DNA from: an uncultured Bacilli bacterium
GTDB lineage: Bacteria > Bacillota_I > Bacilli_A > RFN20 > CAG-449
Reading direction: 5' to 3'
Length of the DNA: 40,546 bases
Assembly: GCA_947626895.1 (NCBI GenBank)
Contig: CANQTY010000008.1
Span: 1-40,546 of the forward strand
In this document: positions 18,766-40,497 of the stretch, piece after piece
Numbering within the stretch: position 1 is the stretch's first letter
Layout: every line of letters begins with the position of its first letter
The notes under the pieces: generated by a model
Database searches by the model: none
What the model was told of the DNA's origin: nothing
What the model saw: only the letters and a program-made list of their open reading frames with translations
Program-made: the position numbers and the translations under genes

Positions 18766-19686
18766 ATGAAAAAATTAAAATTTTGTGCCTTATGTTTATT
18801 ATTAACTTTTAGTTGTTTTTCTTGTTCTAGTAATGAAGATATTGGAGAAATTAACATGATTGCTCCGAATGGTACACCTTTATTATCAATATCTACTTTT
18901 TTAAGTGAACATGAAAATGTAAAATGCTCCGCGGTTGAAGGAAGTGAACCCTTACTTGCAGCTTTTACCTCGAAAGAATATGATTTGATTGTTGCTCCTA
19001 TGAATCTTGGCGCACAACTATACAATAAAGCCAAAGATTATCTTTTATTTGAAACTCTTGTATGGGGTAATTTATATGTTGCATCAAGAAATGAAATGAC
19101 TTCTTTTAGTGATTTAAACGAAAAAAATATCACTTTATTTGGAACCAATCAAACTCCAGATATTGTCATGAAATGTTTAAGTTCTTATCATCAAGTTGAA
19201 TATAATGTTACACGTGTTGATGACGTTAGTAGCGCAAATGCATTACTGCTTCAAAATCAGGCAGAATATATTGTTTCTGCAGAACCATCTCTTAGTAAAT
19301 TAAAAGAAAAAATGCCTAATTTATATACTTTAGATTTACAAGAAGAATGGAAAACTTTTTCAGGAATTTCTTCTTATCCTCAGGCAGGAATCTTTGTGAA
19401 AAAAGATGAAGTAAATCGTTTAAAAAGCACTTTATTATCTTTAAGACAAAATGTAAAAGATATCTTAAAAGATGTTTCATATACTGTTTCTTGTGCTTTA
19501 AAAATAGATAAATTAGCCTCTCTTGGGGAAACAACCCTAACTTCTTCTTTACCTAATTGTCATATTGCAATTGAAGAAAACCAACAAGAAGCTATTGAAT
19601 TTTACTTTACCAAATTAAATGAAATCGGCTTAGGAAAAACTTATGGAGAAAAATTACCAGATGAAGAATTTTACATTACGTTATAA
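18766..19686 (+). CDS. ABC-type substrate-binding lipoprotein
   Basis: Signal/lipobox LTFSCFSCSS; IAPNGTPLLSISTFL...DLIVAPMNLGAQLY periplasmic-binding-like. Confidence 0.75.
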   Translation: MKKLKFCALCLLLTFSCFSCSSNEDIGEINMIAPNGTPLLSISTFLSEHENVKCSAVEGSEPLLAAFTSKEYDLIVAPMNLGAQLYNKAKDYLLFETLVWGNLYVASRNEMTSFSDLNEKNITLFGTNQTPDIVMKCLSSYHQVEYNVTRVDDVSSANALLLQNQAEYIVSAEPSLSKLKEKMPNLYTLDLQEEWKTFSGISSYPQAGIFVKKDEVNRLKSTLLSLRQNVKDILKDVSYTVSCALKIDKLASLGETTLTSSLPNCHIAIEENQQEAIEFYFTKLNEIGLGKTYGEKLPDEEFYITL

Positions 19687-20437
19687 AATTTTCTTTCTAT
19701 CCTCTGGAATTTTATCTTTTATTCTTATTGCTTTTATCTTATCTCAAGTAAATGGAGGGTTTTTATTTCCCCCAATACACGAAGTAATTGGAAGATTTTT
19801 TAGTCTATTTATCGATACCCATTATCTAGAAAAATTTATGATGAGTTTACTTAGACTATTGATTTGCTTAGTCATTTCATTTTTAATTGCATTACTATTA
19901 TCATATTTAAGGCAAATAAAAAAAGAAAGTAGTGAATTTTTTACACCGTTTATCGTATTTTTAAAATGTTCCCCCTTAGCGGTTTTATCTATTTATTTAT
20001 TTTTAATCTTCGGGGCAAATAAAGGACCCTATTTTATTATTTTATCTATGATTATTCCTATTATGATCGAAGCTTTTTTTACCGCGCAAGATTCTATTCC
20101 TAGAGAAATAAAACAAGAACTAATGGTCAATGATGTATCTTCATTTAATAAATATTTTAAAGTCATTTTCCCCTTGATGTTACCTAATATTGCAATGTCT
20201 TTTTTAATGTGTTTTGGCTTAGGACTTAAAGTTGCCGTCATGGGTGAATACTTAATGCAAACACCATCTTCACTAGGTTCCTATCTATATGAATTAAAAG
20301 CCAATTTAGATATTGTTACTCTTTTAAGTGTATTATTATTCTCAATCTTTTTTACTTTAATTATTGATTTACTTGCTAAAATAATCTTTAAAAAACTTCA
20401 ACAAGTATTATTTAATCATTCTGATTTGGTTTCTTAA
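19643..20437 (+). CDS. ABC transporter permease (SsuC/TauC-like)
   Basis: Multiple TM helices; IPREIKQELMVNDVSSFNKYFKVIFPLMLPNIAMSFLMCFGLGLKVAVMGEYL (EAA-loop-like). Confidence 0.75.
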   Translation: MEKNYQMKNFTLRYKIFFLSSGILSFILIAFILSQVNGGFLFPPIHEVIGRFFSLFIDTHYLEKFMMSLLRLLICLVISFLIALLLSYLRQIKKESSEFFTPFIVFLKCSPLAVLSIYLFLIFGANKGPYFIILSMIIPIMIEAFFTAQDSIPREIKQELMVNDVSSFNKYFKVIFPLMLPNIAMSFLMCFGLGLKVAVMGEYLMQTPSSLGSYLYELKANLDIVTLLSVLLFSIFFTLIIDLLAKIIFKKLQQVLFNHSDLVS

Positions 20438-23400
20438 ATACTTTGATATCCTTAGGTTTTGGAACTAAATCATAAAGCCTTTCAAGAATAGCACGATAAT
20501 CTCCATTATAGTTAATCTTTTCAAGCGAAGTACATCCATCAAAGGAAGTTTTAGAAACATAAATTAAAGAATTTGGCAAAGTAACCTCTTTTAATGCAGT
20601 ACAATTGTTAAAAGCAATCTCTGCAATACCTAAGCAGTTGTTTCTAACCTCATAACTCTCTAACGTGGTGTTTTCTTTAACTCTAAGTAAAACATTACCA
20701 ACATATAAATCCACGTCATTCGAGGCTAAAAAAATCTTGAAGAATTTACAATTTGTAAATGCATTTGCGCCTATATCTTCTAGACGAGAATGGCTTTCCA
20801 CAGTAATAGATTCCAAATTTTCATTATCATTAAAGGCATAGTCTGCAATATAAGTGATATACCAAGGAATATAGACCGATGTAATATCATTACTCTTATA
20901 GTAATATAATGTATTCCCTAGAATGACTAAATTGGGTTGTTCGTTAAAAAAGCGTGTCCCATCAAGAGCGTAAGAATAAACTCGATCTAATTCATTTTCA
21001 TGGATAATCTTTAATTTATCACAGAAATAAAAGGCAAATTCTTGTAAAGTTATAACATTTTTTAAATCGATTTCTTCAAGATATTCTTGATAAGAAAAGG
21101 CTCCTTCTAGGATGTTTTTTGTCTCATGAGGAACACTATATTTTGTTTCCGTTTTATATAAGGGATAATAGATTAAATTTTCCTTACCCTTTGTAAATAA
21201 AACCCCATCACTTAGTTCAAATAAGGGCGAATGATTGATAATTTCTACTTGGGTGCATTCAAAGGGGTTTCTTCCAATGATTTTTAAACTCTTAGGTAAA
21301 TAGACCTTTCTTAAATAGATATTATTAGAAAATATCCAGGAATCGATTTCTTCTATATTTTCTTTAATCTTTAATTCACTATTTTTTACATCATATGGAT
21401 AAAAGATGATACGTTTTGTAGGATTATCAATAATCATCCCATCTTTTTCTTTTAAAAAATACTTATTATTACTTTCAATATGTAGAGAAATACAATTTGC
21501 AAATGCACTCCTTCCTATCGTCATGAGCGATTTAGGAAGTGTCAATTCTTTTAGTTTATAACAGAAGCGAAAAGCACTTTTTCCTAGTTCTATAAGCCCT
21601 TCAATTAAATTAAATTCTTCTAAATCATAACACCAATAAAAAGACCATGAACCAATCTTTTTCACCCCATCTAAAAGTTTTATAGATTTTAAACTTTCAC
21701 ATTTAAAGAAAGCAAAGTCTTGTATTTCTTTTAACGTCGAAGGAAATACAATAGTTTTTAAGTTGTTACAACGGGCAAAGGAATTATAAGGAATCTCTTG
21801 AATTTCACTTAAAATCAATACCCCAGTTAAATTATGGATATTAAAGAAAGATGATTGTTTTAGACCTTTGATTTCTTTAGAAAGGATGATATGACCCATA
21901 TACTCTTTTTGACATGAAATGATATTGTCATCTTTTATAATTAATGACTTATTCATTTCTTCTTGAATTTTATTTATTACTTCAAGGGTTCTTTGAAGTT
22001 TTTCTTCTTTTACGTATTGATTTAATTGCGATTTTAAATCTTCTTTTCTAAAGATTTCTCCTGTAATAAAGATATTTTCTATATAAAATAGGTCATGAAG
22101 TTTTTCTTTTTTAATCAGCAGAAGAGCCACATCAAAAAGTAAATATTTTTCAATATAATAAATACTCCTTGGATAAAGAATATTGTTTTCTTCTTGTTCT
22201 TCTTGATAAATCCGTTTTAAAAGATAATAAGCAAATTCTTTTTTCATTGTGCCAATCAATTCATTTGCCAAAGCAAAATAATCTTCATCTAAAACACTAT
22301 TTAAAATCACTTCTTCTATCAAAGGGGTTAAATAAGATAAAGGCATTTTCGTATACGCATTAGAGATGATTAAGAAGATATATTGAATGACATCTTCATC
22401 ATGATGAGATTTACAAAGTTCTACAATATATTTTTTATTTTCTTCATAGTTTTCATTTAATAGATCATAAAGTTTTAAAGCTAAACAATATTCATATAAG
22501 TCCTCGACACTAAAATATTGACTCTTATTTTTATTTTCTTCCTTAAAACGGATATCAAAAGCAATTTGTTTTAATTTTTCAATAGAAATATTGCTTTCTA
22601 CGACGTAGAATTTTTCCATATAATTTTTTAGTAACGCAACTTTATTAATCCGTGATAAAAAATCATCATCAGAGTTATTAATATAATATAAAAGTGTGAT
22701 GTTATAGGCATTATTAAAGAGTTTATTTTTCGCAACAATCATCTTTAATTCATGAATATAATCCACATTTTGATTGGTATTTAAAAAGAGATTATCAACG
22801 AGTTGATACTTTTGGGACATGGATAAATCAACAATTCGATAATTCACACACCCCTTAGAAATAAATTCATCATGAACATAAATTAAACGCACATCAAATA
22901 AAGATTCGAATTCTTTGATATAGCGATCTAAAAGAAGGATAAAGTCTTGATCAATCGATTCATTTAATCCATCGATAATTAAAGTAAGTGAATACTTTTT
23001 AATTTTCTTTATAAAATCTTCTTTTTGCAAAGGTTTATTTAAAAGTGAAGTAAATTCTTCATATAGATAACTAAGGATAGAATCATGATGGGAGGAAAGA
23101 AAATTTCCCGCATTCATATAAAAACATAATTTATTTTTATAAGGAAAATATTGCATTAATCTTAAACATAATAAAGTTTTTCCCATGCCATGGGAGCCAA
23201 TAAGAGAAATATCATTTTTCATATTGACATTAAAGATTAAATCATAAATGCTAATTAAATCATCTTCACTTCCATGATAAGAAACAAGATTATTTTCGAT
23301 ATAAACGTATTTAAAAAAGTGTTCGTAATCACATTTTTTATCGATCTTACATTGATTAAATACTTGTTGCCCCATTAAATAGATGAACTTTTTATAATAC

Positions 23401-23546
23401 TTTTTAAAATGCATCTTTATCATGAGGATTTGATAAAAATGAATGATATATTTACGAAAGACAAATAAAATGAATGTTCCAAGAATCATGGAAACAATAC
23501 CAATAATTAAACTCATCATTTCAGGACTAATCATAAATATATTCAT
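20412..23546 (-). CDS. Membrane-anchored NACHT-like NTPase fused to LRR_5/BspA-type leucine-rich repeats (bacterial NLR-like)
   Basis: N-terminal TM segment (MMSLIIGIVSMILGTFILFVF); Walker A LIGSHGMGKT; Walker B LTLIIDGLNES; C-terminal half is LRR_5 repeats (LKTIVFPSTLKEIQDFAFFKCESLKSI...). Confidence 0.75.
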   Translation of the reverse strand: MNIFMISPEMMSLIIGIVSMILGTFILFVFRKYIIHFYQILMIKMHFKKYYKKFIYLMGQQVFNQCKIDKKCDYEHFFKYVYIENNLVSYHGSEDDLISIYDLIFNVNMKNDISLIGSHGMGKTLLCLRLMQYFPYKNKLCFYMNAGNFLSSHHDSILSYLYEEFTSLLNKPLQKEDFIKKIKKYSLTLIIDGLNESIDQDFILLLDRYIKEFESLFDVRLIYVHDEFISKGCVNYRIVDLSMSQKYQLVDNLFLNTNQNVDYIHELKMIVAKNKLFNNAYNITLLYYINNSDDDFLSRINKVALLKNYMEKFYVVESNISIEKLKQIAFDIRFKEENKNKSQYFSVEDLYEYCLALKLYDLLNENYEENKKYIVELCKSHHDEDVIQYIFLIISNAYTKMPLSYLTPLIEEVILNSVLDEDYFALANELIGTMKKEFAYYLLKRIYQEEQEENNILYPRSIYYIEKYLLFDVALLLIKKEKLHDLFYIENIFITGEIFRKEDLKSQLNQYVKEEKLQRTLEVINKIQEEMNKSLIIKDDNIISCQKEYMGHIILSKEIKGLKQSSFFNIHNLTGVLILSEIQEIPYNSFARCNNLKTIVFPSTLKEIQDFAFFKCESLKSIKLLDGVKKIGSWSFYWCYDLEEFNLIEGLIELGKSAFRFCYKLKELTLPKSLMTIGRSAFANCISLHIESNNKYFLKEKDGMIIDNPTKRIIFYPYDVKNSELKIKENIEEIDSWIFSNNIYLRKVYLPKSLKIIGRNPFECTQVEIINHSPLFELSDGVLFTKGKENLIYYPLYKTETKYSVPHETKNILEGAFSYQEYLEEIDLKNVITLQEFAFYFCDKLKIIHENELDRVYSYALDGTRFFNEQPNLVILGNTLYYYKSNDITSVYIPWYITYIADYAFNDNENLESITVESHSRLEDIGANAFTNCKFFKIFLASNDVDLYVGNVLLRVKENTTLESYEVRNNCLGIAEIAFNNCTALKEVTLPNSLIYVSKTSFDGCTSLEKINYNGDYRAILERLYDLVPKPKDIKVFKKPNQND

Positions 23547-23626
23547 AACTTCTTCCTATCTTTAAGAAAATTATAAAAGAAAAGAGTGATATTGAAAAGA
23601 TATTTTAAAAAGGAAATTTCTTCCAT

Positions 23627-23668
23627 AGAAAAAGTTTTACTCCAGAGAGAAGGGAGTAAAACTTTTCT
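23627..23668 (-). terminator. Strong hairpin terminator after the M3 peptidase
   Basis: agaaaaagttttactcc / gggagtaaaacttttct inverted arms. Confidence 0.7.
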
Positions 23669-23689
23669 TTAAGATAAATTTAATCACCA

Positions 23690-25378
23690 CTAGAGGTCAA
23701 TAGATTTTAAATAGCTCTTTAAGGGTTGAACAATCTTTTTCACCGTACCTTCTTCAAAAGGATTCTTTAAATGAGCTTTTTGAAGAAGTGTTACGAAAGG
23801 ATATTTCCCTCCGAGCTTGCATAAACGGACATACTTTTTCCAAGTCTTTTCATGATTCTTACGATCTTCATTGAAGAACTCAAAGGCTAAGACTTGCGCT
23901 AAAGTATAGTCAATATAATAAAATGGGGAACTAAAGACATGGTGTTGTTTCATCCACCAACCCCCACGTTCAAACACAGGCGCGCCATCATATTTTTTAT
24001 GTGGTAAATATTTTTTTTCAATTTCTCTAAATTTCGCACATCGTTCTTGATGTGTTGCAGTTGGATTTTCATATACCCAATGTTGGAATTCATCAATTGT
24101 GACTCCATATGGAATAAAACGAATGGAATCCGCGGTATGAGAATATAAATATTTTTCTGTATCTTCTTTAAAGAATAAATACATCCATGGATGGGTTAAA
24201 AATTCCATACTCATAGAATGAATTTCACAAGCTTCAAGTGTTGGCATACGATATGAAGGACAAGCGAAATTTCTTGACATATAGCCTTGGAAAGCATGAC
24301 CAAATTCATGAGTTAAAACATCGACATCACCAGAAGTACCATTAAAATTAGAAAAGATAAATGGCACTTTATATTTAGGAATATAAGTCATATATCCTCC
24401 TGGTGCTTTACCATCTTTTGCTTCAAGATCCATCAAATGGTGTTCATTCATTAAACGGAAGAAATCATCGGTTTCTTTAGATAAATCATGATACATCTTT
24501 TGCGCATTTTCTATTAGATAATTCTTATCTCCTTTTGGAGTAGCATTTCCATCTAAGAAGTCTAAGTTGTAATCAAACCATAAAGGTTTTTTAACGCCAA
24601 TTCTTTTTATTTGTTCTTTAAATAATTTATTTGTAAATGGAACTAAATCTTTATAGATTTGTTCTCTATATCCTTTGACCATCTTGGGATTATAATCGGT
24701 TCTACCTAAAGAATAATATCCCATTTCAACAAAGTTTTTATACCCAAGTTTTTGAGCACAAGTAGTTCTTAATTTTACTAATTGATCATAAATCGCTCCG
24801 ATTTGTTCATCATGTTCTTCAAAGAAGGAAGCAGAAGCTAAAGATGCTTTTTCACGAACACTACGATCAGGAGATGTCGTAAACTTTCCTAATTGAGCAA
24901 GAGTATATGTCTTTCCTTCAAATTCGATTTGTGCGGAGGCAATAATTTTCGTATATTCAGAACATAAACGATTGATTTCTTGTAATTCAGGAATGATTTT
25001 CTCATCAAAACACTTTAAAGAAACTTCCGCCATATTGAAAAGATGGCTCCCCCATTTTTTCTCTAATTCTTTACGATATTTCGCATGAATGAGAGCTTTA
25101 GTAAATTCATTATCTAAAGATGAAATTAAAGGAGATATCTCATCGATATATTCTTGATCTTTTTGATATTTTTTATTTTTTGTATCAATCGAATACCAAA
25201 TTTGAATTAAAGTAAAATCCGTGGAGATTTTATCTTCCATTTTAAAATACTTTTTTAAGGCTTTATTTTGTGCTTCAAAACTTGGGGCATTATTAAATTC
25301 CTCAAGTAATGCTTTATATTCCTTTTTAATGCGTTCCAAATTGGGACGATGATATTTCATTTCTTCAAAATTTTTCAT
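23690..25378 (-). CDS. M3-family oligoendopeptidase
   Basis: VLTHEFGHAFQGYMSR zinc HEXXH motif. Confidence 0.93.
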   Translation of the reverse strand: MKNFEEMKYHRPNLERIKKEYKALLEEFNNAPSFEAQNKALKKYFKMEDKISTDFTLIQIWYSIDTKNKKYQKDQEYIDEISPLISSLDNEFTKALIHAKYRKELEKKWGSHLFNMAEVSLKCFDEKIIPELQEINRLCSEYTKIIASAQIEFEGKTYTLAQLGKFTTSPDRSVREKASLASASFFEEHDEQIGAIYDQLVKLRTTCAQKLGYKNFVEMGYYSLGRTDYNPKMVKGYREQIYKDLVPFTNKLFKEQIKRIGVKKPLWFDYNLDFLDGNATPKGDKNYLIENAQKMYHDLSKETDDFFRLMNEHHLMDLEAKDGKAPGGYMTYIPKYKVPFIFSNFNGTSGDVDVLTHEFGHAFQGYMSRNFACPSYRMPTLEACEIHSMSMEFLTHPWMYLFFKEDTEKYLYSHTADSIRFIPYGVTIDEFQHWVYENPTATHQERCAKFREIEKKYLPHKKYDGAPVFERGGWWMKQHHVFSSPFYYIDYTLAQVLAFEFFNEDRKNHEKTWKKYVRLCKLGGKYPFVTLLQKAHLKNPFEEGTVKKIVQPLKSYLKSIDL

Positions 25379-29394: not shown

Positions 29395-30132
29395 TTAATA
29401 ACCTCCTCGAATTTGGGACAAAAGATCTTTTGGTGCCATTAATTGCCAATAAGAATCATATACTATTTCCTTATAATCATTTTTTAAAAAATATTTTACT
29501 TGTTTTGTAAGATGACTCTTACATTCAAGAAAAAAATCTTCACTAAGTCCAAATTTAGTTTGATAATGCTTTAGAATATATCCTACCTTTTGATATAAAA
29601 ATATAGAATTATAAGCACTAAGTGCTCCAAGTAATTCTTTTTCATTTAGGTTAGGAATAATCTCAAGAGCATATAGAAGTTCATCAATTCCTCCTGAAGA
29701 ATCAATATCATCAATACAATCTATCACTGTGCGTTCTAAAGATGTGACACGAACGCGTGCTTGATTAATGTAGTTAATACCATAACTATTGTTTGGTTTT
29801 TGACGAATATAATCGATATCAAGAAAGGTAAATGAATTAAATCGTGACTTGCTTCCCACCATTAAAGTATGGAATACTTGATTTGCTACGCCATAATATT
29901 CAAGCGCAGAATGATAACAAAGAAATGCATCATCAGTGATTTTACTAGCAATCTCAAATTTTGTAACTAATGGCTCACCTGTGACATCTAGTAAGACATA
30001 AAGTTTCTTACGCACTTTCATAATTCTTTTTGCACGAAGTAGACCTGCAATCCAATTATTGTATTGCACTTCACTTGAAAACTGTGATTGTACATCTGCT
30101 TTTGTAAAAATATAAGAGGCTAGTTTTTTCAT
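29395..30132 (-). CDS. AbiEi-like antitoxin/regulator family protein
   Basis: N-term winged helix, FEIASKITDDAFLCYHSALEYYGVANQ, VRVTSLERTVIDCIDDIDSSGGIDELLYAL. Confidence 0.7.
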   Translation of the reverse strand: MKKLASYIFTKADVQSQFSSEVQYNNWIAGLLRAKRIMKVRKKLYVLLDVTGEPLVTKFEIASKITDDAFLCYHSALEYYGVANQVFHTLMVGSKSRFNSFTFLDIDYIRQKPNNSYGINYINQARVRVTSLERTVIDCIDDIDSSGGIDELLYALEIIPNLNEKELLGALSAYNSIFLYQKVGYILKHYQTKFGLSEDFFLECKSHLTKQVKYFLKNDYKEIVYDSYWQLMAPKDLLSQIRGGY

Positions 30133-30160
30133 ATTGATTCATCCTTTTTAACCATTTGAA

Positions 30161-30192
30161 CTCAGAACAATGCTATTTTCAATTGTTTTGAG
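30161..30192. promoter_or_regulatory. Inverted repeat upstream of 29395-30132
   Basis: CTCAGAACAAT ... ATTGTTTTGAG, 10/11 match. Confidence 0.5.
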
Positions 30193-30218
30193 TAAATATA
30201 GATAAAAAATTATAACAT

Positions 30219-30830
30219 TTATAACCAAATACCTAAGATATCCGTTGCTTTAGTTTCTACATGTAGCATACGAGCGTAATCAAAAAGAGGAACTACTTTA
30301 ATTCTTGTATTATATACATAGGATTTAAGCGCTTGAGTAACCATCTTTTTATCCATTTTATGCATATTTTTTAAAACATCACAAATGGTTCGTTCTCGAT
30401 CATAAATTGGTATCTTTTGACCATCTATTTCTATGGTTGTAAGTCCTATAGAAAAAAGATGAGATTCCATACGATATGCTTTAATAAGGGGATAATTTAT
30501 ATCTAAATTAACTTTAGAACTATGTTTATCTAAAGCAATATTCCATTTATCAGGTAAAGTATCTATATATCCATAATAATAAAGTGCTGTTTCCATACAG
30601 AATATTGCATTAGGAAAAAGACGATGGATAAAATATATTTCATTCTTTTGTTTTTTTTCACTTGCCCAAAAATAAATATCTTTATTGTTTTTAAAAAGAT
30701 ATCCTTCTTTTACCATCGGATTAAGAATATCGTAATAGATATTTTCTTTTTTTAGTTCAGACAAAGTCATGACATATTGATATTTTTTAAATAATTCATG
30801 AAGTGATTCAATTTGATTTTTATCTAGCAT
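30219..30830 (-). CDS. AbiEi-type antitoxin, orphan paralogue of 31838-32446
   Basis: LFPNAIFCMETALYYYGYIDTLPDKWNIALDKHSSK...IYDRERTICDVLKNM, parallel to the 31838 protein. Confidence 0.75.
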   Translation of the reverse strand: MLDKNQIESLHELFKKYQYVMTLSELKKENIYYDILNPMVKEGYLFKNNKDIYFWASEKKQKNEIYFIHRLFPNAIFCMETALYYYGYIDTLPDKWNIALDKHSSKVNLDINYPLIKAYRMESHLFSIGLTTIEIDGQKIPIYDRERTICDVLKNMHKMDKKMVTQALKSYVYNTRIKVVPLFDYARMLHVETKATDILGIWL

Positions 30831-30845
30831 ATTTTTCTCCCTTCG

Positions 30846-30879
30846 ATAAATTTCTGAGATTTTTTATTAAGAAATTTAT
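30846..30879. promoter_or_regulatory. Inverted repeat upstream of 30219-30830
   Basis: ATAAATTTCT ... AGAAATTTAT, perfect 10-bp arms. Confidence 0.55.
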
Positions 30880-30941
30880 ATATTATTTAATCTTTATACT
30901 TAAATAAATTAGTTAGATAAACATAGAAAATTTATTTTGAA

Positions 30942-31847
30942 TTAACACCATTCTCCTTTTTCTGCGAACCATTTTTTATTCCATGTAGTATGACTTAACA
31001 TAGCATCTGAGACTGGTTTTAAAAATTTAGCTATTTCTTTGATAACAACGGATAATTTAAGTGAATCATTCTTTATATTTTTCATAAAATCAGTCCATCG
31101 TTTCTTTATATTTTCGTTATCAATAAGAGCAATAATTCGCAAAAAACTTTCATGATTATAAACTGTATTATTATGCTGCAAAGCCTCAAAAATTGCCTTT
31201 TGTAAAATCTCTCCATCGAAATCGAAAGTGTTTGACAAGTAATAAATATCATAAAAATCCTTCATTCGACTAGTTAATTCGTAACGTTCTAAAATTGCAC
31301 TGAATTTTTCTGCAATAGTGCTTTCAAGGGAATATGTATTAATTATTGGAGATTCAAAATCAGGAAGTAACGCTTGTATCGTTCTTTTTTTGGCCTCTGG
31401 AATGATAACATTTCCGATAGCAAAATCTAAATATAACTTTGCACGAGCGTTATTTACATATCCCATGATTGTGACACCCACTCCTGGATAATTTTTATGA
31501 ACAGCAATAGGATGATATTCAACTGGCACCATCCGAATAAAATCATTGCCTGTTGGTACTTTAATAATTTCTTCAATCATTTTTTTAATATCATCACTTG
31601 AATGCGAATAGTTTCTTAATAGGAAATCAGCATCCATTGTTAAACGACTTTCAAAATTCGTTAATACATAGATAAACATTCCACCTTTTAAAACTAAGCA
31701 ATCACAATACTTAGATTTAGCAATTTTTCTATAAAATTCCTCAAGTAAAAAAAGCTCAATAAATTTTTGATGAGTAATATTAAATGTCTTTGTTTTATTT
31801 TTAAGTCTTGCAAGAACAGACGCACCTTTATCTTCCATTATAACCAC
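30942..31847 (-). CDS. AbiEii-type nucleotidyltransferase toxin
   Basis: VLKGGMFIYVLTNFESRLTMDADFLLRNY nucleotidyltransferase signature; AEKFSAILERYELTSRMKDFYDIYYL; overlaps antitoxin ORF by 10 nt. Confidence 0.9.
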   Translation of the reverse strand: MVIMEDKGASVLARLKNKTKTFNITHQKFIELFLLEEFYRKIAKSKYCDCLVLKGGMFIYVLTNFESRLTMDADFLLRNYSHSSDDIKKMIEEIIKVPTGNDFIRMVPVEYHPIAVHKNYPGVGVTIMGYVNNARAKLYLDFAIGNVIIPEAKKRTIQALLPDFESPIINTYSLESTIAEKFSAILERYELTSRMKDFYDIYYLSNTFDFDGEILQKAIFEALQHNNTVYNHESFLRIIALIDNENIKKRWTDFMKNIKNDSLKLSVVIKEIAKFLKPVSDAMLSHTTWNKKWFAEKGEWC

Positions 31848-32446
31848 ACTCCTATAAAACGATTTACTTTTTTTTCGACATGCAGTATCTTTGCATATTT
31901 TTTCAGTTTAAACAAATTTTTTTCCGAATCTTCAATATAAGCAATAATTGCTTTATTAAATGTTTCTGCATATAGCTTATTCATATAACGCAAAACATCA
32001 CAAATGGTACGATCTTTATCATAAATTTTTACTTCAAAACCATCGACATCCCCTTTAGTTTCCCCAAGATGAAGGATACTAGAATCCATACGAATAGCTT
32101 TAACAAAAGGATAGTCTATTTTAGTACGATCTTTAGAAACATTTCTATCAAGAGCAAGATTCCATTCATTAGGGATAAAATCACTATAACCATAATAAAC
32201 AAGAGCAGTTTCTAAACATAGTATAGCATCTGGAAAAAGACGATTAATAATTAGAATATCACTATATATTCCATCCTTTTCCCAGTGATAAAAGCCTCTT
32301 TTAAGTCTTTCAATCAAACCTTCATTTAGCATACGCTGAATATCAACATGATATAATTTTTCTTTTAAAAGTTCTTTAGTTGTCATAATATATTGGTAAC
32401 TAGCAAATAGATTTTCTAGCTCAACAACTTTATTTTCATCAAACAT
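31838..32446 (-). CDS. AbiEi-type antitoxin
   Basis: LFPDAILCLETALVYYGYSDFIPNEWNLALDRNVSK...IYDKDRTICDVLRYMNK; first gene of overlapping pair. Confidence 0.88.
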   Translation of the reverse strand: MFDENKVVELENLFASYQYIMTTKELLKEKLYHVDIQRMLNEGLIERLKRGFYHWEKDGIYSDILIINRLFPDAILCLETALVYYGYSDFIPNEWNLALDRNVSKDRTKIDYPFVKAIRMDSSILHLGETKGDVDGFEVKIYDKDRTICDVLRYMNKLYAETFNKAIIAYIEDSEKNLFKLKKYAKILHVEKKVNRFIGVWL

Positions 32447-32673: not shown

Positions 32674-34371
32674 CTAATTTTTATTAGGTAAGGAAGCTAA
32701 GAAATTATCTAAACTCTCGACTTTGGCTTTACCAAATCCTGTATATTCAAAATCACTATAATAATAAGTCATATTCCCCATGACATCGAAAAGTCCACCA
32801 TATCTAACTTTTGTATTTGAGGGTTCTTGTTCATCATAATTAATACTTAGAATGATACCCATAGGGCTAAACATTCCTGTAGAAACTAAATCAGAAAAGA
32901 TTTCTTTAGCAATATAAGAACCAAAAGTTGTCCAAGAAGCATATTCTTTATAATCCTTTAAATTTTCATAATCATCTGTAGATGTTTCTTCAAACGAATA
33001 TAATACTGTCTGCATTTGATCCATGATGAGCGCTAAATTTTCTACATAATCATAATATTTTAAATATCTTAATCCTAGATAACCTGTTTCAGTAATCATA
33101 TCGCCAATCGTATAAACAATATTATTTTCTTCATCTTTTGAGGCCGTAAATTCATATACGCCATCTTCATAATCTTGTTTACCTTCAAGATTGATATAAC
33201 CATTATCTACATACGTATAGGTTTCTTTTGTTTCTTCAATATATTCATCACTATAATCGATAAAACAATAATCTTCTGTATAATAGCTTTTTCCCATTGA
33301 AATAGATGTTTTATCTTCTTTTGTATAAGTTCCTAACTCACAATAGAAGTTATGATTTGCACTTAATTCTTTCACTTTAGTGATATCATCATATGTTTCA
33401 GGAACAACGACCTTATGATTTTTTAAATAATTATGTAATGCTTCATTTTCTTTATTTCCTAAATCATGGAAATGAAGAGAAAAACTCGCATCGATATTAT
33501 AAGTAATAAAGCCATAATCTAATTTAAATTCATAAGGGGATATTATATTAATTGTAATATTTTTTAAGTTCGTATATAAATCCATCATGATGTCTTGGCT
33601 AGACATATTTTGTGTTAACATTAATACACATGCTTCGACAAAAGATTGATCTTCAATTTCATAACTATTTTCATCATTTAATTGATTTACACGAAGACTA
33701 GATAAAGGTAAATCTGTGACATCTGTAATCATTACATGATAATCACTAATTCCTTTTCTAAAATATTGGGCTCCGACAACTTCATTATTTTGTTTTCCAT
33801 ACATGAAAGCATTATTCACATCATAACTAATTCCATAAGAGCCAATAAAGGGTTGAGATCCTTTTCCTTTTAAAGTGAATTCATAAGAATCACTATAGAA
33901 GTTTTCTTCATAATCTAAGGAATATTGACTTGTATCATCATTATAGTAACCCTCGCCTGTAACTACATAACTTGTAGAATTTAAGTATCTTCTTAAGACC
34001 ACTTCTGGTTCCATACTATCAATAACTTCTAGTTCAAAAGAAGTTTTAATACTAGAATCACTATTTAAAGTAGCTTCAATAGTTGTTTTACCTAAAGCAA
34101 TTCCTTTTAAAAGTCCAGAAGAGGATACCGTAGCGACCTTTTTATTGCTACTTATGTAACTTACTTCACATTCATCTTCCCCTAGATAGGCCTTTAATTG
34201 AAAATATTCTCTTATGCCAATTCTATCTTTCTTTTCTAGAGTTAAAGTCTTTTTAGTTGATTCACTACTTGTACTATCTTCACTAACCTGTGAATGATTA
34301 CAACTATAAAAGTTAAAGGATAATAAGGTTAAGGAAAGAACACATAATATTCCTTTTAAAGCTTTTTTCAT
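32674..34371 (-). CDS. Lipoprotein with Big_2-like Ig domain, unknown function
   Basis: Lipobox FNFYSC; YISSNKKVATVSSSGLLKGIALGKTTIEATL (Big_2-like). Confidence 0.75.
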   Translation of the reverse strand: MKKALKGILCVLSLTLLSFNFYSCNHSQVSEDSTSSESTKKTLTLEKKDRIGIREYFQLKAYLGEDECEVSYISSNKKVATVSSSGLLKGIALGKTTIEATLNSDSSIKTSFELEVIDSMEPEVVLRRYLNSTSYVVTGEGYYNDDTSQYSLDYEENFYSDSYEFTLKGKGSQPFIGSYGISYDVNNAFMYGKQNNEVVGAQYFRKGISDYHVMITDVTDLPLSSLRVNQLNDENSYEIEDQSFVEACVLMLTQNMSSQDIMMDLYTNLKNITINIISPYEFKLDYGFITYNIDASFSLHFHDLGNKENEALHNYLKNHKVVVPETYDDITKVKELSANHNFYCELGTYTKEDKTSISMGKSYYTEDYCFIDYSDEYIEETKETYTYVDNGYINLEGKQDYEDGVYEFTASKDEENNIVYTIGDMITETGYLGLRYLKYYDYVENLALIMDQMQTVLYSFEETSTDDYENLKDYKEYASWTTFGSYIAKEIFSDLVSTGMFSPMGIILSINYDEQEPSNTKVRYGGLFDVMGNMTYYYSDFEYTGFGKAKVESLDNFLASLPNKN

Positions 34372-34383
34372 GTCTTCTCCTTA

Positions 34384-36105
34384 TTAAGCTTGGTGTTCAT
34401 GATTTAAAAATTCTTCATGACTCACACCAAATTCAAGATGAGTTTTTGCTTCGGAAATATTTAAATTAGCAAATAAAGCTTCTTGATCTTTAGATTCAAA
34501 TAAGATACATAAATCAGGATCTCCATCTTTTCTAAATTTATTTAAGAAAGCAGATGGAGCAATTTTAGTAACACTACTTGGAATAAAGACTTTTCTTAAT
34601 GCATTACAATCCGCAAGAGCGCTTTCGCCAATTTCTTCTAAACCAGAATTAAAGTCTACGACTTCTAATTTAGAGCATTGATCAAAACATTGTTCACCAA
34701 TCTTTTTTAACGTTGTTGGGAACTGAATACTTTCAATATTACTATTCATAAAAGCAACATCCCCAATAGAGGTTACTTTGGTATTGGATAAATCAACAGA
34801 TGTCATTGCTTGGCAAGAAGTAAAGGCACGATTTCCAATGCTTTCTAAATCACTACCAAAGCTTAGATTTTCTAATGTCCAACAATATCCAAATGCGCCT
34901 TCTTCAATCTTTTTTAATTTTGTTGGTAAAGTAAAGTTAGCAAGTTTAGCACATGCATTAAATGCATTAGCGCCAATTTCTTCAACATTTTGAATACCAT
35001 TTACAGTAGTTAATGTATTACATCCTTGGAAAGCACTCTTACCAATTTTTGTTACAGTCGTTGGTAAAGTAACAGTTCCTAAACGAGAACAAGCACTAAA
35101 GAAGCCTTCAGGTACTTCACTCATCTTTCCATCCGCGTAGTTAAAGCTAGCTAAAGAAGAATCACTAGCAAATACACTTTTACCAAATGAAGTGATCGTC
35201 GTAGGTAAACTAATACTTGTAAGGGAATCATTTTCCGCGAGAGCTTTATCTCCAAGAGTTTCAATTTTCGTACGATTGAAGTTAAATGAACTTACTCCAT
35301 CTAAAGCGGCTAAACCGTGTTCCTCAACGGTTTTTAAAGCAGAAGAAAGGGTCATTCTTTGTAAAGAAGCATTGCCATAAAAAGCACTTTTTGCAATGGT
35401 TTCAACAGTATTTGGCATATCATAAGCGACTAATTTAAGTCCTTCTGGATAGCATAATAAAGTCTTTTGTTCTTTATCAAATAAAACATTATTCACTGCA
35501 CAATAATAAGGATTATCTTCAGCAACTTTTAGTTTCTTTAAGTTTTCACATAGATGGAATACTTCTCTACCAATGGATTTCACAGTACTTGGAATATTTA
35601 CTTCTTCAAGAGTAGGGCACCATTCAAAAGCGGAATCTTCAATCACCTCTAAACCTTCTGGTAATTCAAGTTTTGTAAGTTCTGATCCAGATTCAATATT
35701 TAAGAAGGCTTCTTCACGAATAATTCTTAAACTTCTAGGTAAAATAAGGGAATCCATCGTGGTATATCTAAATGCTGCAGGACCGATTTCTCTTACAGGT
35801 AATAAACCACCTTCACCATCATATAATTCAGGAATTTGAATATCGGTTTCAATGGATAAATATTCTGTGACGACATAACCATCGCCAGCTTCATTTAATT
35901 CATAAAGAATTCCATCGGTACCTTCCGTGATTGTATAATCCCAACCTTCACTAGAACTTGATCCGTTTTGAGAATTTACTTCACTTGTTTCTCCATTTGA
36001 AGAAGTATTTTCTTCACTATTTTGATTTCCCCCATTATTATTACTTGCACATCCTGCAAATAAAGATAAGGATAATAAGGATACTAATAATATTTTTTTA
36101 TTCAT
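34384..36105 (-). CDS. LRR_5/BspA-like leucine-rich-repeat lipoprotein
   Basis: Start moved to internal ATG (MNKKILLVSLLSLSLFAGC) behind GGAGGG; repeats LTSISLPTTITSFGKSVFASDSSL... Confidence 0.88.
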   Translation of the reverse strand: MNKKILLVSLLSLSLFAGCASNNNGGNQNSEENTSSNGETSEVNSQNGSSSSEGWDYTITEGTDGILYELNEAGDGYVVTEYLSIETDIQIPELYDGEGGLLPVREIGPAAFRYTTMDSLILPRSLRIIREEAFLNIESGSELTKLELPEGLEVIEDSAFEWCPTLEEVNIPSTVKSIGREVFHLCENLKKLKVAEDNPYYCAVNNVLFDKEQKTLLCYPEGLKLVAYDMPNTVETIAKSAFYGNASLQRMTLSSALKTVEEHGLAALDGVSSFNFNRTKIETLGDKALAENDSLTSISLPTTITSFGKSVFASDSSLASFNYADGKMSEVPEGFFSACSRLGTVTLPTTVTKIGKSAFQGCNTLTTVNGIQNVEEIGANAFNACAKLANFTLPTKLKKIEEGAFGYCWTLENLSFGSDLESIGNRAFTSCQAMTSVDLSNTKVTSIGDVAFMNSNIESIQFPTTLKKIGEQCFDQCSKLEVVDFNSGLEEIGESALADCNALRKVFIPSSVTKIAPSAFLNKFRKDGDPDLCILFESKDQEALFANLNISEAKTHLEFGVSHEEFLNHEHQA

Positions 36106-36119
36106 GATTTTTCCCTCCA

Positions 36120-37565
36120 TTAATTAGCGTTGATTAAATAATCTGGAATCACTGTAGAATCGATCCCTACATAGGTAATCGTCGTAGTTTGCTTTGTGGT
36201 TTCATAGGTAACATCTGAAGATGCATACATATGTGTACCTGTTAAAATAACACTTAAAGTATTATTTGCTCCAAGAGACACTTTAAAAGTATCTCCCATT
36301 AAAGAAAAGTATTCATCATAGGGTAATAATGCCATTTCACAATATAATTCTGTAAGGGCATAAGTACCAAAAGTATTATTTCCTAAAGATTTATAACATT
36401 CTGGAGCAATTAAACCGACCTTTGGCATTAAAAATTCCATATCTCGATCCGTTGTGCCCATATATTCGTTATAATCTCCATAAGATATTACAGCATGATT
36501 ATTCTCCGTATCAAAATAGTAATAATACGTTTTACCATCTTTTTCTTTATAACCTAGTAAATAATTATAATATTCAAACTCATCATTTTCAGCGCGTCTT
36601 GCTCCTGTATGAACTTCACTTGAATAAAGCATACTATTTTCTACATCAACAAAATAATCATAGCTTTCATCCTCAATCGAGGAAGTTTCATAATCAATTG
36701 CCACATGAACAGTATAATTTTTTGCCGTTTTAAAGGGTTCAAAAGCTTTCTTTAAGTTTTCATGATCTTGTGTAGATTCAAAGGGCTCTAATGTTCTTGG
36801 AGTCGTTTCGCCAATATCTAAAACATCTAATTCAAAAAGATATTGTTCTAGATAATAAGAAGATTCATCATATTCTTCTTCATACTCTACTAAAATTCTA
36901 AATTGATCAAAATCATCACCATCAAAGTGAATACAAAATTCACTTAATGATAGACCTGCTTCTAAATAAGATGAAGCGATTTGATAACCTGTAATATAAC
37001 TTGCAAATTTAGCGGCGACAGTAGTATCTTGAATCACATACCAATTTGGCTGATCACGAATTCCTTTGAGTTTTCTAACCTCTAAAGAAGAGATAGGATT
37101 TTTCATCACTTGGAAATATAATCCTGAAGATGTAAGTTCCTCGACTTCATTTGTTAAGGGATTTAAGGCTCTTTCACAATACTTTCCTGCACTATTAGAG
37201 AAAGCATTTGCAACTGTGATTAAATCACCAGTTGTCGTATCTCTTTCTTCGTAATAGTAACTATCACCACCTACCTCGGATAGACAGTTATAAATGAATT
37301 CTTGTCCAGATGATCCATTATAAACATAGTAACTTAATGTCCCTGAGGCAGTAAAAGTACTATTTAAGTGCTCTAATGCTCTATTTAATTTTGTGTATAG
37401 TCCTTCTTTTGCACTAGATTGACCTACACTAGAATTATCATTAGAGTCTTGACTACTAGTGAGATCACTAGTCTCAGTAGGGGTGCTATTACTTTCTTGG
37501 CAGGAAACTAATCCCATGCCAAGACTTAAAAGTAATGCAAGTGAAACCATTAATTTCTTTTTCAT
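36120..37565 (-). CDS. Lipoprotein of unknown function
   Basis: Start moved to internal ATG (MKKKLMVSLALLLSLGMGLVSC) behind GGGAGGAAG; lipobox GLVSC. Confidence 0.8.
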   Translation of the reverse strand: MKKKLMVSLALLLSLGMGLVSCQESNSTPTETSDLTSSQDSNDNSSVGQSSAKEGLYTKLNRALEHLNSTFTASGTLSYYVYNGSSGQEFIYNCLSEVGGDSYYYEERDTTTGDLITVANAFSNSAGKYCERALNPLTNEVEELTSSGLYFQVMKNPISSLEVRKLKGIRDQPNWYVIQDTTVAAKFASYITGYQIASSYLEAGLSLSEFCIHFDGDDFDQFRILVEYEEEYDESSYYLEQYLFELDVLDIGETTPRTLEPFESTQDHENLKKAFEPFKTAKNYTVHVAIDYETSSIEDESYDYFVDVENSMLYSSEVHTGARRAENDEFEYYNYLLGYKEKDGKTYYYYFDTENNHAVISYGDYNEYMGTTDRDMEFLMPKVGLIAPECYKSLGNNTFGTYALTELYCEMALLPYDEYFSLMGDTFKVSLGANNTLSVILTGTHMYASSDVTYETTKQTTTITYVGIDSTVIPDYLINAN

Positions 37566-37590
37566 AACTTCCTCCCATGTATGTTTCAAA

Positions 37591-40497
37591 TTATGCTTTT
37601 TGTACTTGTGTAAAAGTATATGTACCATTAGCGAATCCATCAGAAGAGAATTCTGAAATAGTAATTGTCATTGTTGTATCTGTAATTTCTGTAATTGTAA
37701 TTGGATTACCATATATATAGTAATTTGGATGTACGCCATTGACTTTAAATGAAGAAGCATATTTATCAATCTCCCCATATTTATATGAAGATGTAGGAAG
37801 CTTCCAAACAAATTCAATAGTATGAGTTCCATCTGCATCAGAAAGTTTCATCAAAGGAAGTGGATTCAACGTTGTCGAAGAATCTACTAAAGTCATCTCT
37901 AATTGCTTTAATGTCCATCCATTTTCACAAGTCATATTTGTAAATGAACTATGTGGTTCCCAAGATGGATAAACAGAATTCATAAATTTACCTTCAATTG
38001 AATTGTCCTCTTTATCTTTTAAAATAACATTGTCTAAATGACATAAAGGTTTATCTACATTTGATAAAAACTGAGTAAATTCACAAGTAAATTCTGATAA
38101 ATCGTCACTGGAATCTAAAAGGATAGTGTCGCAACGTGAATTATATTTCCATGTAAAGTTATACGTTTTTGGAGTTGCATTATCTTCATCTTTAATTGTA
38201 ACAATTCCAGTTCCATCTGATTTAAGTTCAATTGTATTTTTATCGCAAACATAAGTATTTGCTACTAAATCTTTTTCAAGTGGTTCTAAAACATAACTTG
38301 GTGAAATCGTTTTTTCAATTTTTTTATCACCATAAATATTATATGCCGAGACAGTAGATGTAGCAGTTAATGTTACACTAGATGTTAAAGCCTTGTTCAC
38401 TTTAATTTTGAAATGAGCCTCACCCTGAGCTTTTTGTGTAGCTTCATCATCTAAATCTATAATTTCAATACTTTCAGGATCAGAGGATACAACTTTACAA
38501 CTTGGATCATATCCAGTTGAAGCAGTAACTTTACAATCATATTCTCCACCTATATATAGTTTTGTATAATTAATGCTACTGCCATTTAATAGAGTCATAT
38601 CTAAGCTAATACTAGTGCTCGAGTAATTATAGTCAATGTCCAAGATAATCTCATCTGTTACATCATTATACACATTACCAACAACAATTTTTGTTGTTCC
38701 AGCTTTTGATAAGGTAAAAGATTCACCATTCCAATTCAATGATAAATATTTGCTATCATATTCCATAACCTGATAATTTCCAGCATCCATAGCAGAAGAA
38801 GACTCTATATAAGTTGGTTTCAAATCTTTCTTTTCTAAATAAGCTCCACCCATTGCCATAGAAATAGGTTCTGAACTACATTCAATATAGGATGCAATAT
38901 ATTTTTCAGGAGCTAGAAGTAAATCTTCATCCTTAATTTCTTTTCTTTCTTCATATTTATATGAAAATTCATAAGTAGTTACTTTAGTTGGAATCATATC
39001 TTCAGTAGCTACGAAGTTACCTTCTTCATCAACAACTGTACCACCTTCATATTCCGTAGAAGAAGTACCATAAGCAGTAAAAGTAATCTTACCTGAATTT
39101 ACATGACCCTCATTATCTGTTAAGAATTCAACTTCATCAACAAATGCGATGTTTTTATGATTTGTTTGCATTTCAATATTTCTAGCTTTAACACTCATGC
39201 CATCGCCATAATCTTCGCGATAAGACACATCTAATTCTAATTTATCAAGATATTCATCTACTGGATACTTATTGCTAAGCAATTTGCTTTGGTCTAAAAC
39301 ATCTAAAAAGTCATCTTTTAAAGAAGGGTCTTGGCTACCAGAAGGAGCATGTAATTTTTTAACTGCATCTTCTTCAGTCACATAGTTTTTAGCTATCTTT
39401 CTAATTGTAGATGAACTATCAGTTTCTTCTTTAGGTGCTTCACCTAAAAGATAACCAGTCACAGATGGAGTTGTAGTTGTTAATAAGTTCATATCTTCAT
39501 CAAATGAACCTTGTAATTCAAAATAATTTGTTTCAGTAATGTAATTATTACGAATTTTAAGAGTATTATCTCCTTCTTCATTAACGCCATCAATTTCAAT
39601 AGCATAATATTGATTTGCATCGAAATGTTCTTCATATGATTTTCTATTTGCCTCAACTTCTTTTCCTTCACTATTAAATTCTTTAGTTACTAAAGTGAAA
39701 TCAGAAGCTTCTTCAGTAAATTGATCTTCTAAACTTTCTACATAAACTCTATATTCTTCTGCATTTTCAGGAATTAATACAGGTTTTCTTAATATATCAG
39801 AGGTACATAATAAAGGATTTGCTTTACTAAAATCTAAAGTAAAGTCAAATGTACCTTTTTGTACAACATATACTTCTTCTTCTTTAAATCTAAAGACATC
39901 ATAATATACGTCATTATAATCAAGTGCAGTATATTTTAGATGTTCTCCATCTAAATCGATATAGAATTGATCTCTATAACGTAAATCTACGTCATTTAAA
40001 GTAAAGGTAAAATCTTCATTTTTTGTGAATGCAAATTCTTGACCATCTTTTCTTTTTAAAACGACTTTAGAATAAGTTGAATCTTTCTTTGTTAATGTTA
40101 GTGTAGGAGTACTTTCTACATTAAGTGAAACATCATAGACTCCTTCATTTAAGACACGAATGTGTCCATTTTTACCTTCCTCAAAGCCATCCTTATTGGT
40201 TAAAGCATCATACGAATAGAAGACATCTTTAGAGGAATAAATCGATAGTGAATTACCTCTTTTAAGTTTTACATTACCATACGTATATGTATCACCTTGT
40301 TTCAGTAATTCTACCCTAACTTGATTTCCTAAATCTAAATCTCCAGTTAAGTAATAATGAGGGGATTCCGTTGGTCCACTTTCACTTGTGTCCATAGAGT
40401 TACCTGAAAAGCTAGTAGAAGTATTCGGTTCTTCTGTTTCTTGACACGCAACGAGGGCACATAGAGCTATAAGGGGTAATAAAAATTTTCTTTTCAT
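37591..40497 (-). CDS. Large lipoprotein of unknown function
   Basis: MKRKFLLPLIALCALVAC lipobox; long beta-rich ORF, acidic; RBS ggaggac. Confidence 0.8.
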   Translation of the reverse strand: MKRKFLLPLIALCALVACQETEEPNTSTSFSGNSMDTSESGPTESPHYYLTGDLDLGNQVRVELLKQGDTYTYGNVKLKRGNSLSIYSSKDVFYSYDALTNKDGFEEGKNGHIRVLNEGVYDVSLNVESTPTLTLTKKDSTYSKVVLKRKDGQEFAFTKNEDFTFTLNDVDLRYRDQFYIDLDGEHLKYTALDYNDVYYDVFRFKEEEVYVVQKGTFDFTLDFSKANPLLCTSDILRKPVLIPENAEEYRVYVESLEDQFTEEASDFTLVTKEFNSEGKEVEANRKSYEEHFDANQYYAIEIDGVNEEGDNTLKIRNNYITETNYFELQGSFDEDMNLLTTTTPSVTGYLLGEAPKEETDSSSTIRKIAKNYVTEEDAVKKLHAPSGSQDPSLKDDFLDVLDQSKLLSNKYPVDEYLDKLELDVSYREDYGDGMSVKARNIEMQTNHKNIAFVDEVEFLTDNEGHVNSGKITFTAYGTSSTEYEGGTVVDEEGNFVATEDMIPTKVTTYEFSYKYEERKEIKDEDLLLAPEKYIASYIECSSEPISMAMGGAYLEKKDLKPTYIESSSAMDAGNYQVMEYDSKYLSLNWNGESFTLSKAGTTKIVVGNVYNDVTDEIILDIDYNYSSTSISLDMTLLNGSSINYTKLYIGGEYDCKVTASTGYDPSCKVVSSDPESIEIIDLDDEATQKAQGEAHFKIKVNKALTSSVTLTATSTVSAYNIYGDKKIEKTISPSYVLEPLEKDLVANTYVCDKNTIELKSDGTGIVTIKDEDNATPKTYNFTWKYNSRCDTILLDSSDDLSEFTCEFTQFLSNVDKPLCHLDNVILKDKEDNSIEGKFMNSVYPSWEPHSSFTNMTCENGWTLKQLEMTLVDSSTTLNPLPLMKLSDADGTHTIEFVWKLPTSSYKYGEIDKYASSFKVNGVHPNYYIYGNPITITEITDTTMTITISEFSSDGFANGTYTFTQVQKA

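Follow-up and report, generated by a model that had tools for sequence, protein, structure and literature searches.

The window analysed here, a 40,546-nucleotide stretch from an uncultured, gut-type Bacilli bacterium, carries on its reverse strand a gene (20412-23546) whose ORF and domain matches give a TM helix, a NACHT-type NTPase, a helical middle and an LRR_5 array in a single chain of 1044 aa. The locus raises the question of whether a bacterium holds here an NLR-type immune sensor in one gene, and by what means such a sensor would act. The ORF is intact, with 1044 codons free of stops and frameshifts, and its length, its motifs and the 26-bp overlap with a permease gene converging on it (19643-20437, forward strand) are all as described in an earlier inspection of the letters, here called the sequence-only reading.

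The NTPase and the repeats behind it

The candidate switch spans residues 110-253 (22788..23219, reverse strand). Its Walker A, GSHGMGKT (residues 117-124; 23175..23198), fits the P-loop pattern GxxxxGK[ST], and its Walker B, LTLIIDGLNES (residues 187-197; 22956..22988), fits the hhhhDGhDE type in the NACHT-type form D-G-h-N-E and aligns with the DGLDE of L118, L115, and L126. The claim of a NACHT-type NTPase is suggestive by Pfam alone, where NACHT reaches 17 bits (E 0.0056), below the cut-off of 26.7, and AAA_22 likewise remains below its cut-off (E 0.0022); it becomes convincing with profile–profile controls. NACHT-type reference proteins were taken from genomes of the same order, eight of them being scanned against Pfam, and in hhalign the window NTPase matched nine such proteins with a score of 67.1 over 142 columns (residues 110-253). 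With Walker A removed, the score against the NACHT profile was still 41.6, compared with 13.1 for the alignment of ABC transporters, the one other P-loop family used as a specificity control, and no more than 25.3 in any of 40 shuffles. Leave-one-out comparisons of L122 and L121, both above the Pfam cut-off, gave 37.6 and 35.7 after the same removal, and ABC proteins match NACHT over 19-37 columns around the P-loop only. Because the score survives the removal of Walker A and exceeds both the ABC and the shuffle controls, these profile comparisons support a grouping of the window NTPase with NACHT, as a divergent member, rather than outside NACHT/STAND. A PDB search with an eight-sequence NACHT profile (seven sequences from the order) ranked NLRP3, NLRC4, and other NLRs first, which characterises the NACHT set of the order and not the window protein alone.

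The divergence is seen in two motifs. At the position of the sensor-1 Arg, carried by most of the compared NACHTs, the window NTPase reads YVHD, and where HD1 would show its NP motif it has NNAYNIT instead. The switch may therefore be non-canonical; since both motifs are common and not universal in the set, as in L121, a full-length NACHT of the order that also lacks the sensor-1 Arg, their loss was treated as divergence and not as exclusion. The same losses, together with an unrecognisable winged-helix region and one of the most atypical codon usages in the window (-0.084), could be taken as signs of a degenerate or decaying NACHT-LRR protein, a pseudo-switch without remaining function. However, the reading frame is unbroken over its whole length, Walker A and B are intact, the SD and promoter are plausible, and the Arg is absent from full-length L121 too, which makes decay very improbable.

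The hhalign match to NACHT stops at residue 253, where the helical middle begins (residues 254-545; 21912..22787, reverse strand). In low-confidence models, this part is predicted to be almost wholly helical and would represent HD1 with a winged-helix or HD2 equivalent. It has no detectable homologue, and the winged-helix part after HD1 gave ambiguous alignments and low-confidence models, from which no placement was obtained. AlphaFold without an alignment gave the full chain a mean pLDDT of 37 and a model of residues 75-450 one of 53; Foldseek with the latter model returned nothing below E 0.001, with ORC/Cdc6 AAA+ among the top matches. These models are too poor for a fold test, and both they and the Foldseek result were left out of the evidence.

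The C-terminal BspA/LRR_5 repeats named in the sequence-only reading are unambiguous. They occupy residues 546-1025 (20472..21911, reverse strand), where Pfam LRR_5 matches in five stretches (residues ~546-1025; E 4.9e-60) and LRR_8 also matches (E 1.2e-8), and the repeat units and the closest PDB sequences, which are solved BspA-like LRR chains, give the same assignment. Comparison with the genome and its relatives did not support a recent derivation of the array from a close LRR protein encoded there, the best matches being only 24-29% identical.

The membrane helix and predicted topology

A KD scan of the protein detected one hydrophobic segment, at the N-terminus (residues 11-30, MSLIIGIVSMILGTFILFVF; 23457..23516, reverse strand), and no second TM segment anywhere in the 1044 aa. 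The helix is followed by a basic juxtamembrane stretch (residues 31-56; 23379..23456), and the net charge is -1 on its N side and +7 on its C side. By the positive-inside rule, these flanking charges suggest an N-out/C-in orientation and, with the absence of a second TM, place the NTPase and the LRRs in the cytosol, a location that is a prediction only. Cytosolic LRRs had been expected in the sequence-only reading, and the predicted topology agrees with this, putting the repeats inside the cell and not outside. Pfam detected no enzymatic effector domain in the chain, and the single TM helix may serve only as an anchor rather than as an effector.

These genomes are rich in LRR_5, which they carry mainly on lipoproteins but also on cytosolic-looking zinc-ribbon proteins. 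Two of the cytosolic-looking proteins, L096 (1058, forward strand) and L103 (7137, reverse strand), have long LRR_5 arrays in chains of 1598 and 1305 aa with an N-terminal zinc ribbon (CPNCGQ...CNYC and CPICES...CDVC, respectively). A second LRR_5 protein of the window (34384-36120, reverse strand) is a lipoprotein, encoded alongside three further large proteins that are putative lipoproteins (the run spans 32674-40497). Such company would favour a surface or secreted LRR_5 protein with a chance P-loop, like the many lipoproteins of the genome. However, the N-terminus (MNIFMISPEMMSLIIG) has no lipobox Cys, the charge pattern is N-out/C-in, and the NTPase signal lies far above the shuffles; the BspA-type surface-lipoprotein identity was rejected on the N-terminus and the topology, the chance P-loop on the shuffles, and we give a surface protein next to no credence.

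The locus, its distribution and related layouts

An SD-like AGGAAG (23552-23557, reverse strand) precedes the ATG, and a promoter-like TTTTCA-17-TATAAT lies approximately 24 bp before it (23570..23598, reverse strand), a consensus match only, from a scan in which the total count of promoter-like sites was not above shuffles. Further upstream, between PepF and the NACHT-LRR gene, a stem-loop followed by a T-rich stretch (23629..23667, reverse strand; -19.5 kcal/mol for the fold of an 80-nt stretch) is a likely terminator that the consensus scan did not list (loop of 9). Because it separates PepF from the NACHT-LRR gene, the latter is probably monocistronic, forming its own transcription unit and a single-gene system. 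The description of the gene as standing alone holds for the transcription unit and not for the surroundings: the immediate neighbours are metabolic genes, and behind them, approximately 6 kb away, lies an AbiE-type cluster (29395-32446, reverse strand) with three AbiEi-like genes and one AbiEii. The AbiEii nucleotidyltransferase toxin gene (30942-31847) is overlapped by an AbiEi-like antitoxin gene (31838-32446), and the two further AbiEi-like genes (30219-30830 and 29395-30132) come without a second AbiEii, all on the reverse strand.

With one TM helix and no enzyme in the chain, the protein could be a phage-sensing receptor that uses the TM as an inner-face anchor and leaves killing or restriction to a partner protein encoded elsewhere. 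That arrangement is distinctly unlikely, as there is no co-transcribed partner, and the upstream stem-loop and the downstream convergent gene isolate the NACHT-LRR gene.

The gene is present in one of the three genomes of the genus. Its N-terminal half has no match in the two other genus genomes or the other 15 genomes of the family (18 with its own), no true match among 279 order genomes and 395 class genomes, and no true relative in genome and viral collections scanned by pattern, a kind of search for which a four-NACHT alignment was too divergent, or in phages and plasmids searched by tblastn. Weak order-level matches to this half (E ~1e-3 to 4e-7) were not taken as relatives, those inspected being ABC transporter P-loops. 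Plasmid and phage matches of the full protein are confined to the LRR, with no more than the end of the helical part added, and the four plasmid matches examined are annotated as LRR proteins only. Across genus, family, order, and class genomes, the gene is not vertically conserved, and the searches support a patchy occurrence, as would be expected for an accessory defence gene.

In the sister genome G001, the orthologues of the flanking genes (65% and 84% identical) are separated by 281 bp that hold no gene other than tRNA-Leu(GAG), and PepF and tRNA-Leu are arranged likewise in G002. The DNA similarity between the window and G001 ends at 20320 and restarts at 23697; the permease of the window genome has the longer C-terminus of the two (264 vs 251 aa). 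The tRNA-Leu(GAG) of the window genome is found at the edge of another contig (G000:C17:41-125), beside a LysR-like gene, a displacement which suggests that the junction occupied by the NACHT-LRR gene (window 20437-23690) has been rearranged. Taken with the comparison of the locus in G001 and G002, the displaced tRNA places the gene at a derived, tRNA-associated junction that is variable within the genus, and the atypical codon usage would weakly favour gain of the gene here over loss elsewhere.

The order of NACHT followed by LRR_5 was seen in two other proteins of the order. The G154 protein (L122:3022-6966; 1315 aa) is a multi-TM-NACHT-LRR_5 chain with NACHT above the cut-off (27.5 bits) and LRR_5 at 1.4e-45; its gene adjoins a type II REase and MTase, and no relative of it was found in 274 order genomes. 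The G096 protein (L120:1832-7411; 1860 aa) is a TIR-NACHT-LRR_5 chain whose TIR domain, at 25.9 bits, narrowly misses the Pfam cut-off of 28, and its gene adjoins a PDC-S27 defence-candidate gene. L118, another NACHT of the order, adjoins a ZorD-like helicase gene. From these neighbourhoods and the search with the G154 protein, the layout is seen to recur in unrelated, patchy genes, several of them in defence surroundings. The repetition of NACHT followed by BspA LRRs in one order suggests that surface-protein LRRs were recruited as intracellular sensors.

Two further proteins of the set differ in their C-terminal part. A G085 protein (L119:1491-5753) starts like the G096 protein and ends at 1421 aa with no detectable LRR_5, perhaps as a truncated allele, and L121 (3222-6065) is a DUF4062-NACHT-TPR protein; according to PMC13174449, DUF4062 acts in antiphage systems as a TIR-like NADase.

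The protein might instead be a non-immune STAND regulator, a membrane-tethered hub for stress, envelope or host-interaction sensing that would use the same switch without killing. MalT is an example of a STAND regulator. The single TM would fit an anchor, metabolic genes lie directly beside the gene, and PADLOC matched the protein to no curated defence model, Avs included (best E 0.16). Nevertheless, apart from the TM, the chain carries neither a DNA-binding nor an output domain, the lack of conservation in genus and family is unusual for a physiological regulator, and the related layouts adjoin restriction-modification and defence-candidate genes; a regulator is rather unlikely on this balance.

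Proposed mechanism and comparison with known systems

The reading we favour, with a probability of approximately 0.58, is that of a one-gene, membrane-anchored bacterial NLR-type sensor that would kill via TM clustering in abortive infection. The architecture and the variable occurrence of the gene are shown; as to function, we infer that the protein would most likely be a sensor for anti-phage defence or cell suicide and that it probably serves abortive-infection defence. The proposed mechanism follows the tripartite effector-NACHT-sensor scheme of bacterial NACHT proteins (PMC12169576). The cytosolic LRR array would either hold the NTPase closed or bind a phage- or damage-derived ligand, and on ligand binding the NACHT module would be free to exchange its nucleotide and to form oligomers. 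Oligomerisation would cluster the N-terminal TM helices, with no enzymatic partner domain involved, and the clustered helices might permeabilise or otherwise damage the inner membrane, by which the infected cell would be stopped.

More tentatively, and with considerable doubt on our part, the protein may belong to a distinct, as yet unclassified clade of bacterial NLRs composed of a bare TM effector, a diverged NACHT switch without the sensor-1 Arg, and a BspA LRR pathogen sensor borrowed from the abundant pool of surface-protein LRRs. It would then be an analogue of a membrane-perforating resistosome, held in a single gene in small-genome bacteria. Bacterial NACHT receptors with true LRRs form a link between the immunity of bacteria and that of animals, and a compact one-gene TM-NACHT-LRR protein would be a simple model in which to ask whether phage proteins are sensed by LRRs in bacteria and whether TM clustering alone kills.

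Among the known systems, bNACHT proteins share with the window protein an N-terminal part, a central NACHT and a C-terminal sensor, and LRR-bearing members are said to exist: in the account of Kibby et al. (2023) given in PMC12169576, bNACHT proteins include bacterial NLRs whose C-terminus carries LRRs. The bacterial NACHT proteins that PMC12169576 describes from experimental work carry C-terminal domains other than LRRs. The window protein differs from bNACHT proteins in having one TM helix and not an enzyme at the N-terminus, in a NACHT too divergent for the Pfam cut-off, and in showing no SNaCT or NCH C-terminal family by Pfam. L122, beside a type II R-M system, resembles it in domain order, N-terminal TM and C-terminal BspA LRR, whereas L122 has approximately three hydrophobic segments (by inspection) and not one; the two are not orthologues because their pairwise similarity consists of the LRR and a trivial P-loop match. 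L120 likewise has NACHT and then BspA LRR, but with an N-terminal TIR and in a chain of 1860 aa. Avs (AVAST) proteins have a STAND NTPase switch with an effector in front and a sensor behind, whereas the window protein has no PADLOC Avs match and its sensor is LRR_5. Eukaryotic NLRs such as NLRP3 and NLRC4 share the NACHT and LRR layout, whereas the window protein has no death-fold effector, a different LRR class and a membrane anchor, and the likeness may be convergent. The NLR-like order, NACHT and then LRR in one chain, that the sequence-only reading had recognised is borne out; the architecture stands, and its presence in a bacterium is less surprising than had been implied because PMC12169576 already counts bacterial proteins with NACHT and LRRs as bona fide NLRs and because LRR_5 follows NACHT elsewhere in the order. 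Bacterial NACHT-LRR proteins have thus already been described, and the window protein is a further, divergent one.
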